Below are positions 4,668-31,461 of a stretch of 64,000 bases of DNA, piece by piece (position 1 is the stretch's first letter; every line of letters starts with the position of its first letter). The notes below the pieces were generated by a model, which saw nothing but the letters and a program-made list of their open reading frames with translations, searched no databases and was not told the DNA's origin. Source of the stretch: Methanosarcina barkeri 3 (GTDB lineage: Archaea; Halobacteriota; Methanosarcinia; Methanosarcinales; Methanosarcinaceae); the NCBI RefSeq assembly GCF_000970305.1, contig NZ_CP009517.1, forward strand, positions 1,488,001 through 1,552,000, in the 5' to 3' direction. The translations under genes were made by a program, and so were the position numbers.

Positions 4668-5089
4668 GAAAGGCCCGTGCTACGCACGGTGACAATAAAG
4701 GCTTAAGACAGCTATTATCGCACTCTGGAAAAGCTAAATCTATTAAATTACTCTGGAACTATGAAAATAGAAAAAGAATAAAACTTAAAAAATAGCCAGA
4801 AATAAGTCAAAAAAGAGAATAATTGTCCTGCCTACTGAAAAAACAGGCAGGAAAAGAAATAAAATTCAAATTCACTGCTTATCCATCACTTTCCTGTACA
4901 TCCTCGCCTGGAACCCGTGATACTTCGCAAACCCTTCTGCATCCTTCTGGTCAATGGTCTGGCTGTTAAAGGAAACAAGGTCTTAGGAATACAGGGCGTT
5001 TGGAGAGATAAAGGTCAAAATTGTGAGGGCGCCCTTGTAAAGTTTGACTTTAACTGAGCCTGTTATCCTTACTTGGAATTTGTCGATAA
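4668..5089. repeat. Duplicated block: argG 3' end plus its downstream DNA (matches 12452 to about 12871)
   Basis: The block begins at AAGGCCCGTGCTACGCACGG (hairpin CCGTGC-TAC-GCACGG), runs through the argG terminator-like hairpin (CCTGCCT/AGGCAGG) and into the argG coding end. It matches the sequence downstream of and inside the intact argG with many substitutions and small indels. This marks an old direct duplication of the argG end. Confidence 0.85.
4872..5089 (-). pseudogene. argG 3'-end remnant, old copy
   Basis: About 215 bases match the C-terminal codons of argG (intact copy 12658-13845), including the region encoding the YHGFQARMY tail. Several substitutions disrupt the frame, for example TTAGGAATACAGGGCG in place of CTCGGAATAGAGCGCA. 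Similarity stops at GATAA near 5089, directly before an about 205-bp family repeat. It has no start and cannot be functional. Confidence 0.85.
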
Positions 5090-5270
5090 TTCTATCAAAA
5101 TATATTTTCCTGCCTGCGATTTGCTTAAATCTATCCTGATATAGTTGTAAAGAAAAGGAAATTTAAAAATCCTTGATTTTTGTATATTTAGAAGAAAGAG
5201 TGCTTTATAAGCTGTCTTTTAGATTAAGTTATTCCTTTTTTGAGAGGGCTGTTTTAGATCAAAAGTAGAT
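5090..5270. repeat. Diverged copy of the about 205-bp repeat
   Basis: AAATATATTTTCCTGCCTGCG near 5098 followed by GATATAGTTGTAAAG resembles the AAATATATTT/GGCNGGCGG block of the array at 1-650. The copy begins at the exact point where the argG remnant ends. Confidence 0.55.
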
Positions 5271-5374
5271 TTACGCGTTAATTTTGATTTGCGGATTCTT
5301 TTCGTTCCGTAAATCTAAATGTGAAACGAGTCAGAATTAAAGACGGGAGTCTTTTATTCAAAGATTTCTTTAAA

Positions 5375-7360
5375 TCAATATTCAAGTTCAAATTCTAAGA
5401 TGCTAAATATAATTTTTTTGCTATTTTTGTTCAACTTCCTCCAATTTTCAATTTTTCTTTTAAAATTAGCGCAAACTTTTATTCCTTCCCTATTAATCTC
5501 TTTTATTCTCTCATCACTAACACCAGAATAGACTATGATCCAAGGAACTATCTTTTTTTCAGAGTTATTCAAAGCGTTTATTTTGTTCTTAACTTGTTTT
5601 ATAACTTTTTGTGGATTATGTATAGCTACTTTACACTCGAATAAATGAATGAATTCTCGGTCTTCTAAATAAATATCTATCTGCTCATTTTCCAGTATAG
5701 TATCACAAGAAATTACGTCACAAGTTTTCATATTATTTTCTGCTAGCCAATTAAAAAATAAATATTCGAAAAATTTGCCTTTTGTATCACTCATGAACCG
5801 ATCTTCTTGAGTTTTAAGAGATTGAACAACGTATTTATTAGGTTCATAGGATGTCTCAATAGTGGATAATTCCCCATTGACTTCATCCTTAGTAAAAACG
5901 TTTTCTTCGTATGTGTAAGTAAATTCTGGATATATTTCATCATCAAAAGACCGTGGAATACTTTTGTTTGATAAGTAGTCAATAAAAACATTTTTATCCA
6001 CAGTAATCTCTTTTATTTTTATCATCCCTTCATCTAAATAATTTTCTATACATATTTCCGCCTCGTAATGTAAAGATCCTCCAAAACCAGAGCAGTCTGT
6101 TGCACAATCCAAAAAAATCAACCATCCAGAATAATCTGAAATACCGGTGCTTCCAAAAGCTTCAATTAAAATTCCATAACTGTAATCATAACACTTTTCT
6201 CCTACTCGATGTTTAAATCTCAGAACAAATATCTCTTCCTCATTGATTAGATGTCTTTTCTTTTCGATATTACCTATTAAAATTGATGTAAATGCAGGAA
6301 TTCCATTGAATATTGAAGCTTTACTACCATCTAAAACATCGACTTCATACCACATAAAATAATAGTCAAGCTTTTTGTATACTGATTTTTTATCTTCTTT
6401 AGAAAGGTATTCTGGATCTTTTAATTTGTATGTTACAAAATAATTTTCAATCAAATTTTTATTAAAGTTTTGGCAAACTAAAAGGGCATCAAATAGCTTA
6501 TTAAAATTTGATTTCTTTTTTAATTCATTTTCAAGATGTTCAATTATTTCACTCTTGATCATTCTAAAAAACCCATCTAAGGAGGCCCAATAATCTTTTT
6601 TACGTTTTTTTGGCATAAGGCTGAACCTTGAGAATTTATCAGTTTCCTCTAAAGGATAAATTTCATGTGCTAGGTGTAAGTTTTTTAGTGGAGAATCTAG
6701 AAACTTCTGTTCCCCAAGCAAAACGTACCATAGATATTGCAATGTGTATACGTACCCTAAATATGATCTATCAACTTGTTTCTCTGTTAGATCTGATTTC
6801 AAAATTGGAGCTATTTTATATGCTAATGGAACGCCATACTGCAGATCGTTTAAAAATATGCAAGTTTTTAAAATTGTTGCTGAATTTAAGGCATAGTTCT
6901 TAGGAAGCCCATTGACTGGAACAATATGATTTTCATAAATTTTCTCGAATGATTTCAGTAAGTCCACAATATCTTTAATGGACGCAGTTATTTCGTCCCA
7001 GTTAGTTGAGTTTCTAATTTTTTTTGATCTCTCTAAAATATTTTTTATGAAAATTGTTTTTTCGCATGTATTTGGTATATCGTCGATATTAACTCCAACA
7101 AATCTTGCTCTATAAAAAATATAATCTTCTTCTATACCAAAGGAATTTTCAAGAATAATTGTATCAATTAAACCTCTAAAACAAGTATTTAAGAAGAAAA
7201 CGTATCCATCTAATAATTCGTTATAGTTTACTAGACTGTGGTAATCTTTTAACCACTTTTTAAAAGAAGTTAAATCGGCCACTATATTCAATATATTATA
7301 GTATGAGAAAAAATCGTCAGCATCTCGGCTTTCAAGCTTTATATCTTCTTTACTTACCAC
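5375..7360 (-). CDS. Large hypothetical protein with C-terminal PD-(D/E)XK nuclease-like domain
   Basis: 661 residues, GTG start with a weak GGTG motif upstream. The first 500 residues are not recognised and look like a mixed helical/beta sensor or scaffold. The last about 150 residues carry a restriction-endonuclease-like signature. A helix Glu (KGKFFEYLFFNWL, near 530) is followed by ENEQIDIYL (Asp near 560) and then FECKV (Glu-Cys-Lys near 574), which is the D-xn-ExK arrangement. A strand-helix pair follows (WIIVYSG...). The family is typical of DNA-cleaving enzymes, so a DNA target is likely. It stands alone between the two argG remnants, consistent with a single-gene defence cargo. Confidence 0.75.
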   Translation of the reverse strand: MVSKEDIKLESRDADDFFSYYNILNIVADLTSFKKWLKDYHSLVNYNELLDGYVFFLNTCFRGLIDTIILENSFGIEEDYIFYRARFVGVNIDDIPNTCEKTIFIKNILERSKKIRNSTNWDEITASIKDIVDLLKSFEKIYENHIVPVNGLPKNYALNSATILKTCIFLNDLQYGVPLAYKIAPILKSDLTEKQVDRSYLGYVYTLQYLWYVLLGEQKFLDSPLKNLHLAHEIYPLEETDKFSRFSLMPKKRKKDYWASLDGFFRMIKSEIIEHLENELKKKSNFNKLFDALLVCQNFNKNLIENYFVTYKLKDPEYLSKEDKKSVYKKLDYYFMWYEVDVLDGSKASIFNGIPAFTSILIGNIEKKRHLINEEEIFVLRFKHRVGEKCYDYSYGILIEAFGSTGISDYSGWLIFLDCATDCSGFGGSLHYEAEICIENYLDEGMIKIKEITVDKNVFIDYLSNKSIPRSFDDEIYPEFTYTYEENVFTKDEVNGELSTIETSYEPNKYVVQSLKTQEDRFMSDTKGKFFEYLFFNWLAENNMKTCDVISCDTILENEQIDIYLEDREFIHLFECKVAIHNPQKVIKQVKNKINALNNSEKKIVPWIIVYSGVSDERIKEINREGIKVCANFKRKIENWRKLNKNSKKIIFSILEFELEY

Positions 7361-27900: not shown

Positions 27901-28854
27901 ATTTTCACCCGAATCTAAGCAGGAAGCGCCTTAATTCTCGTTAATTTTCCTTGAATTCCCTTAAACTTTCCTTGCAAATTTTTCTTGAATAGTCTGTAGT
28001 ATTTTCTAATTTTCCGTAAGTTATCTCTAGTTGTCCTTTTAGCCCTATTTAATTCTCTTTCAAATCAAATCTTTTTCAAATTCAGCTCTTTTTATTCTCC
28101 CTTCTGTTTTAAGTCCTTCGACTCGTTACTTCCTCTCTCCTTTTAACCTTTTTGCGCTCTATTCCTTTCTTAGCTCTTTTAGGTGCTGCACTGACAAATC
28201 TCAATTGTTATCGAGTACATCTGTTATTGAATAATTGTTGAGTAATTGTTGAATAATTGTTGAGTAATTGTTGAATAATTGTTGAGTAGAAAATTGAATG
28301 TAAAAGAATTGAATGTAAAAGGTATTATAAATTGTATAAAGGTATCTCTGTATATAAGGGTGAAGCAATTTAATTGACTCGCTAAGTAATAAAATCAGTA
28401 AAGAAGTGCAGGCTCTTTCAGGTGGATAAACAAGTCACTCTTGAGCATCTTAATGTATTTTAAGTTTCGACTTTGGATACCAAGACACCTCTAGTTCGCG
28501 GGAAAGCTCATTTATACTTACCGAACTGGCATGATGAAAAAGAAACTATCCAAGGATTTTACTCCCAAAAACCTACTAAATCCGTCAGTCATTCAATATA
28601 ATGGATGATTATTCAGTATGTTAAATGATTATGGACATGATTTTGAGCATAAAATTGCTGGCTGGATTTTTAATACATTAAAAACTCTAGCAACCAGAAT
28701 TTAGAAGACACTTGATTTTGAGTTTTTGAACCACAGATGTGTATAGCTTTTTGGGTCCCCGGATACTCAACGACCGCGAAGCGGGCGGCTTTTCCGAAGA
28801 AATAAAGAAGAAAAAAAATTGTATTCGAAAAAGCAGCAATATTATCATTTTTTC
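27901..28854. other. Long intergenic region
   Basis: Pyrimidine-rich to about 28190, then a tandem TTGTTGAATAATTGTTGAGTAA repeat at about 28220-28290. After that comes AT-rich DNA with short dead frames. A GC-rich inverted patch (CCGCGAAGCGGGCGG) is near 28770. No gene could be supported. Confidence 0.55.
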
Positions 28855-28935
28855 TCTCTATTCCTTTATCTGCTTTTGTTCTCTCAAGCAAAACCTCCGT
28901 CGTCTCATAATCCAGACCTTCTCTTCTTGCAATCT
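28855..28935 (-). pseudogene. hsdS 3'-end remnant, decayed copy
   Basis: Minus-strand translation gives IARREGLDYETTEVLLERTK, matching IAKREGRDYEKAEVLRERIK of the longer remnant at 31102-31359. Upstream codons have decayed. It is the left bracket of the DUF488 cassette. Confidence 0.65.
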
Positions 28936-29247
28936 AAAAACATCTGTCTCTAATCCACAGAAAATAAACTTATTCAAGTATCAGAATTAAACAGAATCTC
29001 GAAGGACCAAAGCTCCCTTCTCGCTCTCTTCTTTTCGGAATTGATACTTTAACTATGTGAATTCTTATTGGACCTAAAACTTAATGTTACCGTAGAAATC
29101 TATAATTCTGTTAGGATTACATTTAATAAATTGATTAATTAAAAAAATCATCTAATCAAAATTTACAAAAATTTTCTAATTCAAAAAGTTATATAAAAAT
29201 CAAATGAAAATTCTATAATATAAACAAGCAAGATATCTGGTAATTTA

Positions 29248-30111
29248 ATGAAAAATCTAAATCATAAACAAAGAGCTCTTCTTTACACTATAGACAGACT
29301 CCACGAGAGGGACTTGTCTTCTAGGTTCATGATAATGAAGAGTCTTTTTTTGTCATCCCATGTAGAAAAAATAGACAAATTAATGAAATTCTATCATTTT
29401 TTTCCTCACCGTTATGGACCTTTTTCCAACGTTTGCTATACTGATATCTCTACGCTACAAAAAGAGGGCTATATCATAGAAAAGGAAAAGAAAATTGAAT
29501 TAACCGAAAAAGGAAAAATAGCTTTGAAAAGAATTGACCAGAAAGCAACATTGAAAATAAATCGAGTTGTAAGAAAACTCAACTCAGAAGAAGAAATTAA
29601 GGAATACGTATACCAAAAGTTTCCTGAGTATACCATAAGAAGCAAACTTCTTCCTTCTCAAAAAAATGTAAAATATGATCCTGGCCTTTTCACTATCGGT
29701 TACGAAGGAAGGGATATTGACCTTTTCCTTAATATCTTAATTCAGAATGCCATAGATGTTCTTGTTGATGTCAGGAAAAACCCTTTCAGCATGAAATTCG
29801 ATTTCACAAAAAATAGCCTTAAAAAGTATCTCGAAAACTCGGAGATTCGATACCTCCACATTCCTGAACTTGGTATAGAAGGGGAAAAAAGAAAAGACCT
29901 TCTCACACTCAAAGATTACGAAAAACTCTTTGAGTACTACGAAAAAACTACAATAAAAGATAATTCCGAGCTTTTAGATAATATTACCGAATTAAGTAGA
30001 AGCCACCGTGCTGCTCTAATGTGTTTCGAAGCCGATGTAAACATGTGCCATCGTGGAGTTATTGCAAGAAATATAGTTCAGAAAGAAAATGTGGAAGTTT
30101 TAAATATCTAA
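29248..30111 (+). CDS. DUF488 protein with N-terminal winged-helix-like domain
   Basis: 287 residues. Residues 1-105 form a helical, winged-helix-like region (LLYTIDRL, SRFMIMKSLFL, HRYGPFSNVCYTDISTLQKEG). Residues 140-287 are a DUF488 domain with its hallmark segments TIGYEGR, VLVDVRKNP, YLHIPELG, and the Cys/His motif ALMCFEADVNMCHRGVIA. The activity of DUF488 proteins is not established; the conserved Arg and Cys residues suggest binding or processing of a nucleotide or nucleic acid. A TATATAA box lies at about 29189. The next gene starts 54 bases downstream with a strong RBS. Such pairs are often found near restriction systems, which agrees with the hsdS remnants on both sides. Confidence 0.85.
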   Translation: MKNLNHKQRALLYTIDRLHERDLSSRFMIMKSLFLSSHVEKIDKLMKFYHFFPHRYGPFSNVCYTDISTLQKEGYIIEKEKKIELTEKGKIALKRIDQKATLKINRVVRKLNSEEEIKEYVYQKFPEYTIRSKLLPSQKNVKYDPGLFTIGYEGRDIDLFLNILIQNAIDVLVDVRKNPFSMKFDFTKNSLKKYLENSEIRYLHIPELGIEGEKRKDLLTLKDYEKLFEYYEKTTIKDNSELLDNITELSRSHRAALMCFEADVNMCHRGVIARNIVQKENVEVLNI

Positions 30112-30165
30112 AACACATAAAAGCCATGTAAAACTATTGTTCTATTTTTTGGAGGCTTTTCCTGA

Positions 30166-30924
30166 TTGAAACAGGAAACCGAGAAAATCTTAGTTCTGGT
30201 GAGGGCTACACCAGAAGAAAGTAAAAAGCATGGTTATCTTGTATGTGTTGCCGGAATAAACGAAAAAGGAGAATTCAGGAGAGTTTATCCTTTCGAATTT
30301 AGCTATGGTGAAAAGTTAATCGATTTTAAGAAGAAAGACCGGATAGAAGTTGTCCTGACTGAACCGGATAACGATCAAAGAAGAGAAAGCAGAAAGCAAA
30401 TCCGCTACAAGAACCTGCATTCTCCTATTGAGGATGAAGAGCTAAGAAACTTACTCCGGTCAAAAGTGAGTTCAATTGAAAAATTAAAAGAAGAAAATGC
30501 AAGTCTTGGAGTAGTAAAACCTGAACTTTTAGACGTAAAGATTGAAATAAACAGCACTGAAATCTACGACAAGCAGCAGTATTTCAATTTGATGGGCGAT
30601 TATCTGGTAGAGAAAAGAGAAAAAGTCAAAATGCCTGTCGAATTAAGATATCATTTCAGATGCAAAAACGATCCTGCCTGCAACGGACACCAGATAATTC
30701 TGCTCGACTGGGAACTTAACGAACTTGCAAGAAACGTCATGCGGACAGACATAGATCCAAAATCCATAGAAGAAAAGATTAGAAACAAATTCTATGACTT
30801 CATGAAGGAAAGAGACCTCTATTTTGTGATGGGAACTCATTTCCGTTTCAAAACATGGATGATTATTGGGATTTTCTATTTAAGGAAGGAAGACAAAAAG
30901 CAAAAGAATCTTTTTGATTTTTAA
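30166..30924 (+). CDS. Partner of the DUF488 protein, resembling dual-OB domain proteins
   Basis: 252 residues from TTG, with GGAGG ten bases upstream. The N-terminal half (ILVLVRATPEES, YLVCVAGINEKGEFRRVYPF, KKDRIEVVLTEP) resembles the dual-OB family often encoded beside DUF488. This is family-pattern recognition, not a search result. The C-terminal half has CKNDPACNGHQIILLDWEL, a Cys/His cluster that could bind zinc, and a basic MGTHFRFKTWMIIGIF segment. No catalytic motif is visible. It probably works with the DUF488 protein, perhaps recognising nucleic acid. Confidence 0.7.
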   Translation: MKQETEKILVLVRATPEESKKHGYLVCVAGINEKGEFRRVYPFEFSYGEKLIDFKKKDRIEVVLTEPDNDQRRESRKQIRYKNLHSPIEDEELRNLLRSKVSSIEKLKEENASLGVVKPELLDVKIEINSTEIYDKQQYFNLMGDYLVEKREKVKMPVELRYHFRCKNDPACNGHQIILLDWELNELARNVMRTDIDPKSIEEKIRNKFYDFMKERDLYFVMGTHFRFKTWMIIGIFYLRKEDKKQKNLFDF

Positions 30925-31034
30925 ACTTGAGGTTTTTTTTCATTTTTAATAGTGACTTTAAGAACCACATATACGCATTTTTCTTACTCAAATCAGGAAC
31001 TGATGATTTTTGATATTGGGTACCGATGCTCTCA

Positions 31035-31053
31035 CCGGCTGCCAGGCAGCCGG
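31035..31053 (+). terminator. Palindromic terminator-like hairpin after the DUF488 cassette
   Basis: CCGGCTGCC (31035-31043) and GGCAGCCGG (31045-31053) are a perfect nine-base palindrome with a one-base centre, followed by CCTTTCCCTT. It lies about 110 bases after the end of the second cassette gene. Confidence 0.55.
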
Positions 31054-31101
31054 CCTTTCCCTTAACACAAAAAAAGAGACTGAACTTCAAAAACAGCACT
31101 G

Positions 31102-31359
31102 TTATTTTTTCTTATCTTTTTTCCCTTTCTCTGCTTTTATTCTCTCACGCAAAACCTCTGCCTTCTCATAATCCCTACCTTCTCTTTTTGCAATTTCAGC
31201 CTCTGTCTCAACAAGTTGACCGGAAAATGCCTTTGCAAGAATGGACTGCCTTAGTTTTTCGGTTTTTTCTCTTGCCGCTGTAACATTTGATTCAATCGAA
31301 TCGGCAAAGGCAAAGAGCGCTTTAACATACCGTATTATTTCTTGTTTTATTCTTTTCAT
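31102..31359 (-). pseudogene. Type I restriction specificity subunit (hsdS) 3'-end remnant
   Basis: The 85 residues from MKRIKQEIIRYVKALFAFAD to the stop match the C-terminal end of HsdS. The conserved helix ALFAFADSIE, the segment LRQSILAKAFSGQLVE and the acidic tail IAKREGRDYEKAE are all present. Both target-recognition domains are missing and no hsdM or hsdR lies nearby. GC-rich inverted DNA (CCGCTTCGC/GCGAGCGG near 31370) lies at the break. It is a relic of a type I restriction system and the right bracket of the DUF488 cassette. Confidence 0.85.
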
Positions 31360-31461
31360 TAAGAAAAGCCGCTTCGCTTCGCGAGCGGAACAAGAACGAC
31401 CAAAATACAACAGTAAGGCTGTACTTTTCCAAATTCAAAGTTGTTTTTTTCAAACCTACAC

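Follow-up and report, generated by a model that had tools for sequence, protein, structure and literature searches.

The closest described relatives of the gene pair treated here are the PADLOC candidate PDC-M19, the DUF488/DuOB clade, the antiphage toxin-antitoxin system DarTG, and the type I restriction-modification (RM) systems encoded by hsdR, hsdM, and hsdS. The pair lies in a stretch of 64,000 nucleotides from Methanosarcina barkeri 3 (contig NZ_CP009517.1, positions 1,488,001 to 1,552,000), referred to below as the window; the host chromosome is a single contig of 4.56 Mb. Gene A (29248..30111, + strand) is an intact open reading frame (ORF) of 287 aa encoding a winged helix and a DUF488 domain, and gene B (30166..30924, + strand) is an intact ORF of 252 aa with a TTG start, encoding a predicted dual OB-fold protein. 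The best explanation of the pair, tentatively preferred and held with somewhat less than even confidence, is a mobile two-gene defence module of inter-element conflict that acts on DNA.

Both genes match PDC-M19 over their full length and stand next to each other (A, 3.1e-86; B, 8.8e-161 over 252/252 residues). The pair is therefore already catalogued and is not a new kind of system. PADLOC candidates of this series derive from a guilt-by-embedding screen, according to its description (PMC12988326). PDC-M19 is a candidate only, and its PADLOC model says nothing on function; the present analysis adds to it the DarG-type domain, the swapping of N-terminal domains, and restriction neighbours that change from locus to locus. 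No publication was found under the name PDC-M19, none of the DUF488 papers listed appears to describe the pair, and "dual OB" queries gave noise. The link to the DarG domain, the N-terminal exchange within the pair, and its constancy beside changing restriction systems were likewise found nowhere in the literature, the coverage of which was incomplete.

The DUF488/DuOB clade shares the DUF488 domain with window A, and the matches of A to a DUF442 phosphatase, laforin, and diphthine synthase/CbiL fit that superfamily, whereas window B differs, falling below the Pfam DuOB threshold. The DUF488 clade was reportedly predicted by Burroughs and Aravind in 2023 to process DNA ends. The related clade DUF4326 has been proposed to process the ribose phosphates of ADP-ribose, as stated in PMC9503650. 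In comparison with DarTG, the N-terminus of A resembles the C-terminal domain of DarG both in structure and in sequence profile, but its partner domain is DUF488 instead of a macrodomain and the neighbouring gene encodes an OB protein instead of DarT. Pfam, NCBIfam, and PADLOC scans detected neither a DarT ADP-ribosyltransferase nor a macrodomain in A or B. As for type I RM, hsdS remnants flank the window pair and the intact locus occurs in close relatives, but neither A nor B is an Hsd subunit, and the two persist without Hsd genes.

A and B constitute a conserved unit which moves together among plasmids, phages, and chromosomes. In a sample of 392 genomes drawn evenly from the phylum, PDC-M19B was matched in 33 genomes and PDC-M19A in 160, the latter mostly by generic DUF488 proteins. 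Leaving aside a clade of solitary B paralogues described below, a DUF488 gene stood beside every B in the neighbourhoods read except a short B (L123, genome G306) and a truncated B of M. spelaei (L004, genome G027); G388, G403, and G214, where the matches to B were weak or partial, fell outside that reading. Intact pairs are separated by -90 to +212 bp. In archaeal pairs the two genes run in the same direction, and the stop codon of one often overlaps the start codon of the other; many bacterial pairs are convergent. Among 72,556 plasmid records, 23 carry B, with DUF488 beside it in 14/14 regions read. Seven of 50,697 phage records carry B, all of them from Gordonia and all with A (7/7), and a search with a prophage B as query returned the same 7 Gordonia records only. 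In the Gordonia phage Nymphadora the pair corresponds to genes 42 and 43 and lies between the integrase (gene 39) and the immunity repressor (gene 44). Viral contigs contributed 28 loci, some on one contig, of which 25 have both genes and 3 are cut by the contig end; no window-like B was found in these contigs, and a DNA-level search of E. coli with the prophage pair gave no match. The distance matrices of DUF488 and B are correlated (Mantel r 0.73 for 45 pairs; largest of 2000 shuffles, 0.23).

The initial annotation had described a DUF488 plus dual-OB-like pair with intact frames, and this description is confirmed by PF04343 in A and by the matches of the B model to OB-fold DNA-binding proteins. 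Against four relatives, crude NG86 estimates of the ratio of nonsynonymous to synonymous substitution (dN/dS) are 0.085-0.154 for A and 0.075-0.119 for B, so that purifying selection acts on both genes and the pair is no relic in decay. The winged helix of A is more divergent than its DUF488 domain (for instance, 78.5 vs 88.4% identity to G023). Between the genes there is a gap of 54 bp. The strong ribosome-binding site claimed for the pair holds for B, which has GGAGG at 30151..30155 (+ strand), and fails for A, which has a weak GGT only but a clear TATA-box-like element, TATATAAAAA, at 29190..29199 (+ strand), presumably its own promoter. A T-run at 30933..30940 (+ strand), as read from the sequence, may be an archaeal terminator 3′ of gene B. 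Because the pair without a restriction system is under purifying selection and occurs on plasmids and phages, the suggestion that it is a stand-alone defence or nucleic-acid module is favoured.

Gene A combines two domains. The Pfam DUF488 model (PF04343) matches residues 157-274 (2.2e-26; 93.3 bits against a gathering cut-off of 22.2). In the AlphaFold model (pLDDT 84.8), residues 1-135 (29248..29652, + strand) form a winged helix that resembles the DarG C-terminal domain; residues 4-132 have their best match (VIA) in DarG of the M. tuberculosis DarTG complex (7yk3_B; Z 12.1, rmsd 2.8, 123 aligned), followed by MarR/PadR-type winged helices with Z about 9. A profile of 15 A-type winged helices also finds 7yk3_B by sequence (E 7.7e-4 in 177,635), with the shared motif P-x-x-Y-G-P-[FY]-S. 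The Panacea model (PF13274) reaches 14.7 bits on window A, below its gathering cut-off of 25.7. Residues 29-134 match the C-terminal end of one PADLOC HsdS model (PDLC03184, 1.4e-9), hence the domain is used elsewhere too. In other A proteins the winged helix is replaced by ParB_N + HTH_ParB, by MazE/AbrB or HTH_3 (XRE), or by nothing. In quick trees of 45 pairs, the label of the N-terminal domain undergoes at least 7 changes when mapped on B and at least 5 when mapped on DUF488. ParB fusions of DUF488 occur in archaea, and CTP binding has been reported for an archaeal ParB-DUF488-HTH protein (PMC12704722).

Residues 145-287 of A (29680..30108, + strand) contain the DUF488 domain with a rhodanese/phosphatase-type fold, as judged from matches to CbiL, diphthine synthase, and laforin phosphatase (Z 8.6-9.4; laforin Z 9.0) and to a DUF442 phosphatase (Foldseek prob 0.96). 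Residues G151, Y152, D174, R176, Y202, G209, C259, E261, C267, H268, and R269 are invariant in 30/30 A proteins, and the C-x-E...C-H-R loop is invariant also in 21/21 proteins of a further set. In the model the predicted active-site loop, C259-x-E261 ... C267-H268-R269 (30022..30054, + strand), connects strand 254-259 to helix 268-280, with C259 at the strand end and R269 at the helix start, the catalytic-loop position of the rhodanese/phosphatase superfamily.

Gene B gave no match of note in Pfam or NCBIfam. The DuOB model (PF22557) did not match window B at its gathering cut-off, and a Sulfolobus-plasmid B (L126) matched it weakly (0.0019), below the cut-off. From its AlphaFold model (pLDDT 82.9), B is predicted to be an OB-fold protein and the dual-OB-like label is right: residues 1-88, the first OB, match RPA, RecO, PriB, and SSB (Z 8.5-10.1), and the whole model matches the two-OB HIN-200 and telomere-end proteins with prob 0.91-1.00 in the best-ranked rows. 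In the alignment of the B family R39, P42, R72, E74, S75, and G223 are invariant, and C27, D181, W182, and E183 nearly so. The Cys/His cluster of B (C166, C172, H175) is not conserved across this alignment, and zinc-site sensing by B was rejected on that ground. The winged helix of A, for which the initial annotation had also suggested a sensing role, is replaceable and resembles the DarG C-terminal domain.

The window pair is supported as a former neighbour of a type I RM locus, now reduced to two hsdS 3′ ends, as had been claimed from the sequence. Downstream, the last ~76 codons of hsdS survive at 31120..31347 (- strand) within the ORF 31102-31410, which matches NCBIfam PRK09737 at model positions 375-450/461 (6.1e-12) and PADLOC Specificity_I (4.9e-15). 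Upstream lies a more degraded hsdS 3′ end (28829..28950, - strand), matching 31089-31209 at 80% over 123 bp in the same orientation. A 264-bp query from the downstream tail hit only two places in the 4.56 Mb genome, both flanking the pair; since the genome has only those two, their position is far from chance. Intact hsdR, hsdM, and hsdS were not found at the window locus, where hsdS tails are all that remains, and a search of the window genome for HsdM found none, with G022 and G023 as positive controls.

The genus comparison comprised 30 Methanosarcina genomes. A close A (79-100% identity) is present in nine of them, and M. spelaei adds a truncated close B. At these loci an hsdS-tail match lies at most 2.4 kb from A or from the truncated B in 10/10 genomes, and within 600 bp in 8/10, out of 43 such matches across the 30 genomes (0-4 per genome). 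A search for intact hsdRMS in relatives was successful: in G023 (L054) an intact hsdS of 444 aa, convergent with the pair, comes 13 bp downstream of B, and hsdM and hsdR follow it; in G022 (L055) hsdR-hsdM-hsdS lies 2.2 kb from A; and G008 has a 94% HsdM at a distance of about 22 kb from A. The restriction subunits of G022 and G023 were confirmed by PADLOC. An HsdM relative of at least 90% occurs in 4/30 genomes; three of these have it at 1.3-23 kb from the pair, the fourth, G011, has no A, and 6/9 A-bearing genomes have no matching HsdM (both, 3; A only, 6; HsdM only, 1; neither, 20). Co-occurrence in the genus is thus weak, and the link between the pair and hsd genes rests on physical linkage. 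A YwbE-family gene is common to the window, L050, and L051, other flanks are common to L056, L057, and L052, and L053 and L054 share none of those flanks. These different genomic contexts suggest that the pair and the hsdS scars are linked at several sites, and restriction genes look to have been gained or lost repeatedly beside the pair.

A second B C-terminal remnant and an hsdS-tail fragment are also visible upstream of A in G023 (L054, 8696-8966). The pair-hsdS junction of that genome reads as if it had once been tandemly duplicated, and the upstream hsdS tail of the window may be the same scar.

Outside the close clade the neighbours vary. Twenty viral loci were listed and 19 neighbour proteins from 12 of them were scanned with PADLOC. 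Immediately upstream of B, L143 has HsdS-HsdR, L149 a type III Mod-Res, and L138 a HEC-06/Orf5 DUF262-type protein; in L142 a BrxH/DrmD-like helicase comes first and then a gene of 155 aa, and in L141 part of a type III methylase and then an 894-aa protein that matched nothing; PADLOC gave no or weak defence matches in L139, L144, L145, L147, L150, L153, and L157. In L149 the prophage B downstream of Mod-Res is split over two overlapping frames (4839-5671). On the Rhizobium plasmid pRL8 B is preceded by a UzuA-like gene (Uzume), and on Haloquadratum PL100 methyltransferases, hsdS/hsdM, and DUF262 genes lie within 8 kb of the pair. Some plasmid copies lie near RadC, SSB, or RecT. For archaea, 121 proteins (all called ORFs of at least 90 aa within 5.5 kb at 16 loci) were scanned with PADLOC and Pfam. 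Enrichment in defence islands is not claimed for archaea, as defence families were few among the matches listed (25 of 251 and 162), namely YhcG/PDC-S02 in two proteins and methyltransferases in two. Occurrence mainly with unrelated housekeeping genes and never near defence loci, the pattern named in advance as contrary to a defence link, was not found, even if housekeeping genes do adjoin many of the archaeal copies. The pair sits near defence genes often enough to matter, and its constancy while the restriction systems beside it vary suggests a step common to several defences.

Being mobile, carried by plasmids and phages, and often located beside restriction systems, the pair is probably part of antivirus defence. 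In the proposed mechanism, B, as an SSB/RPA/HIN-200-like double OB protein, would bind single-stranded DNA or DNA ends, and the DUF488 domain of A would be an enzyme that acts on the DNA or nucleotide presented by B and alters a sugar-phosphate group or an end of it. The enzymatic role is suggested by the invariant Cys-Glu...Cys-His-Arg loop in a rhodanese/phosphatase-type fold, and a role on DNA ends would fit the fold matches and the prediction reported for the DUF488 clade. The exchangeable N-terminus of A (DarG-type here; ParB, MazE/AbrB, XRE, or none elsewhere) may regulate, aim, or restrain the pair. A more specific version, which is considered quite unlikely, makes the pair a general post-restriction module after any upstream cutter or blocker (type I, type III, BREX/DISARM-like helicase, or DUF262 enzyme): B would bind the exposed ends and the DUF488 enzyme would alter them, blocking repair or recircularisation of the invader, with the DarG-type or DNA-binding N-terminus as a safety catch for the host.

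Several observations weigh against a defence module made of these two genes. A occurs without B at 4/20 winged-helix A loci (G025, G008, G022, G052; the 20 being 9 in the genus and 11 elsewhere), and Methanosarcina has a conserved paralogue of B that lacks A; neither gene, consequently, strictly requires the other. Defence neighbours were found in 5/20 prophage loci (12 scanned), the first ten viral neighbour proteins scanned having been chosen by eye. The 16 archaeal loci outside the close clade have mostly non-defence neighbours, and many plasmid copies adjoin metal-resistance or conjugation genes. Cyanobacterial A proteins (L125, L130) are very distant DUF488 members. The fold matches are moderate, with Z 8.5-10 both for B and for the DUF488 domain of A, and the whole A model had no Foldseek match at E <= 0.001 (best E 0.0098).

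In G025 B is deleted with a 90-bp remnant left, and G052, where A was matched, is outside the 33 B-positive genomes. In the close clade intact B always accompanies A (6/6), and M. spelaei has a truncated B and no A; in G247 the B next to A carries an internal stop. In G008 (L052, 8433-9007) the place of B next to A is held by a small two-gene unit, RelE-type toxin-antitoxin-like by eye. The solitary B clade is dual-OB, about 50-54% identical, and without DUF488 beside it (L011-L020, L022-L024, L028-L032). The window genome has its own paralogue of this type (L002, G000:C1:2473463-2474221, - strand). In the neighbourhoods read, solitary B adjoins an aminotransferase and lies near groES/groEL, as named from their sequences.

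The strongest rival, possible but unlikely, is a toxin-antitoxin or abortive-infection system in which A would be an antitoxin-like regulator whose domain for binding DNA or a toxin has been swapped, and B or the A-B complex a toxic effector released on infection. It draws on the DarG-CTD/Panacea-like N-terminus of A and its swaps with MazE/AbrB, XRE, and ParB, several of which are common in antitoxins, on the finding that B of the close clade is never intact without A (0/6) and is truncated where A is gone (G027), and on the persistence of A alone in four genomes. It does not account well for the many A proteins that are bare DUF488 domains with conserved catalytic-type residues, for the stable solitary B clade of the genus, or for the convergent order in many bacteria, which is unusual for toxin-antitoxin operons. 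An unlikely reading, too, is that of a helper of mobile elements in DNA repair, recombination, or partition that plays no part in defence. Conjugative plasmids carry the pair, some copies being near RadC, SSB, or RecT, the OB fold of B is of SSB/RecO/RPA type, archaeal ParB fusions exist, one with reported CTP binding (PMC12704722), and a solitary B paralogue lies near groES/groEL; a helper of this sort is difficult to reconcile with a pair that stays while its defence neighbours swap, with its position in the lysogeny module of a temperate phage, and with its patchy distribution (B in 33/392 genomes).

That the pair is a dedicated accessory of this particular type I RM system, whose purpose was lost with it, appears very unlikely, and such an accessory was rejected as sole explanation since the pair persists without RM. 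The hsdS remnants at 10/10 loci and the three pair-linked HsdM relatives out of four attest a historic link, but the former-accessory interpretation of the initial annotation is alone too narrow: A and B are under purifying selection although 6/9 A-bearing genomes lack the HsdM of this system, G011 has the system without A, and elsewhere the pair occurs with type III RM, a BREX/DISARM-type helicase, DUF262, Uzume, or nothing defensive. The notion that the genes are chance leftovers of a decaying locus could appeal to the scarred surroundings and to the deletion of B in G025; in view of the intact frames, the dN/dS values (0.08-0.15 against four relatives), and the pair's own TATA box and ribosome-binding site, its probability is next to negligible, and the dN/dS values led to its rejection. 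A mobile two-gene defence module thus continues to be the tentatively preferred reading. Taken as a whole, the initial annotation is confirmed in its observation and partly supported in its interpretation.

Some further loci deserve mention. A ParB-DUF488 + dual-OB pair occurs in another Methanosarcina (L059, G021:C2, 8891-10759), like those of the Sulfolobus plasmids L124/L126. Two archaeal genomes have, downstream of B, a gene for a small protein that is MazG-like by eye (L171, 8456-8785; L172, 10847-11176). L063 (8330-9510) encodes a fusion of a DarG-like winged helix with UPF0175, and the adjacent gene is of the PIN-like DUF3368 type; the two are likely a toxin-antitoxin pair; related proteins of 189-193 aa occur in L044-L049.

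For the biology of the family, the analysis makes two hypothetical genes accessible to experiment as a module: a putative DNA-binding protein, a predicted enzyme whose candidate active site can be named, and a control domain. The control domain of A is shared with the antitoxin of an antiphage system, DarTG. Methanosarcina is genetically tractable, and its solitary B paralogue offers an internal comparison.

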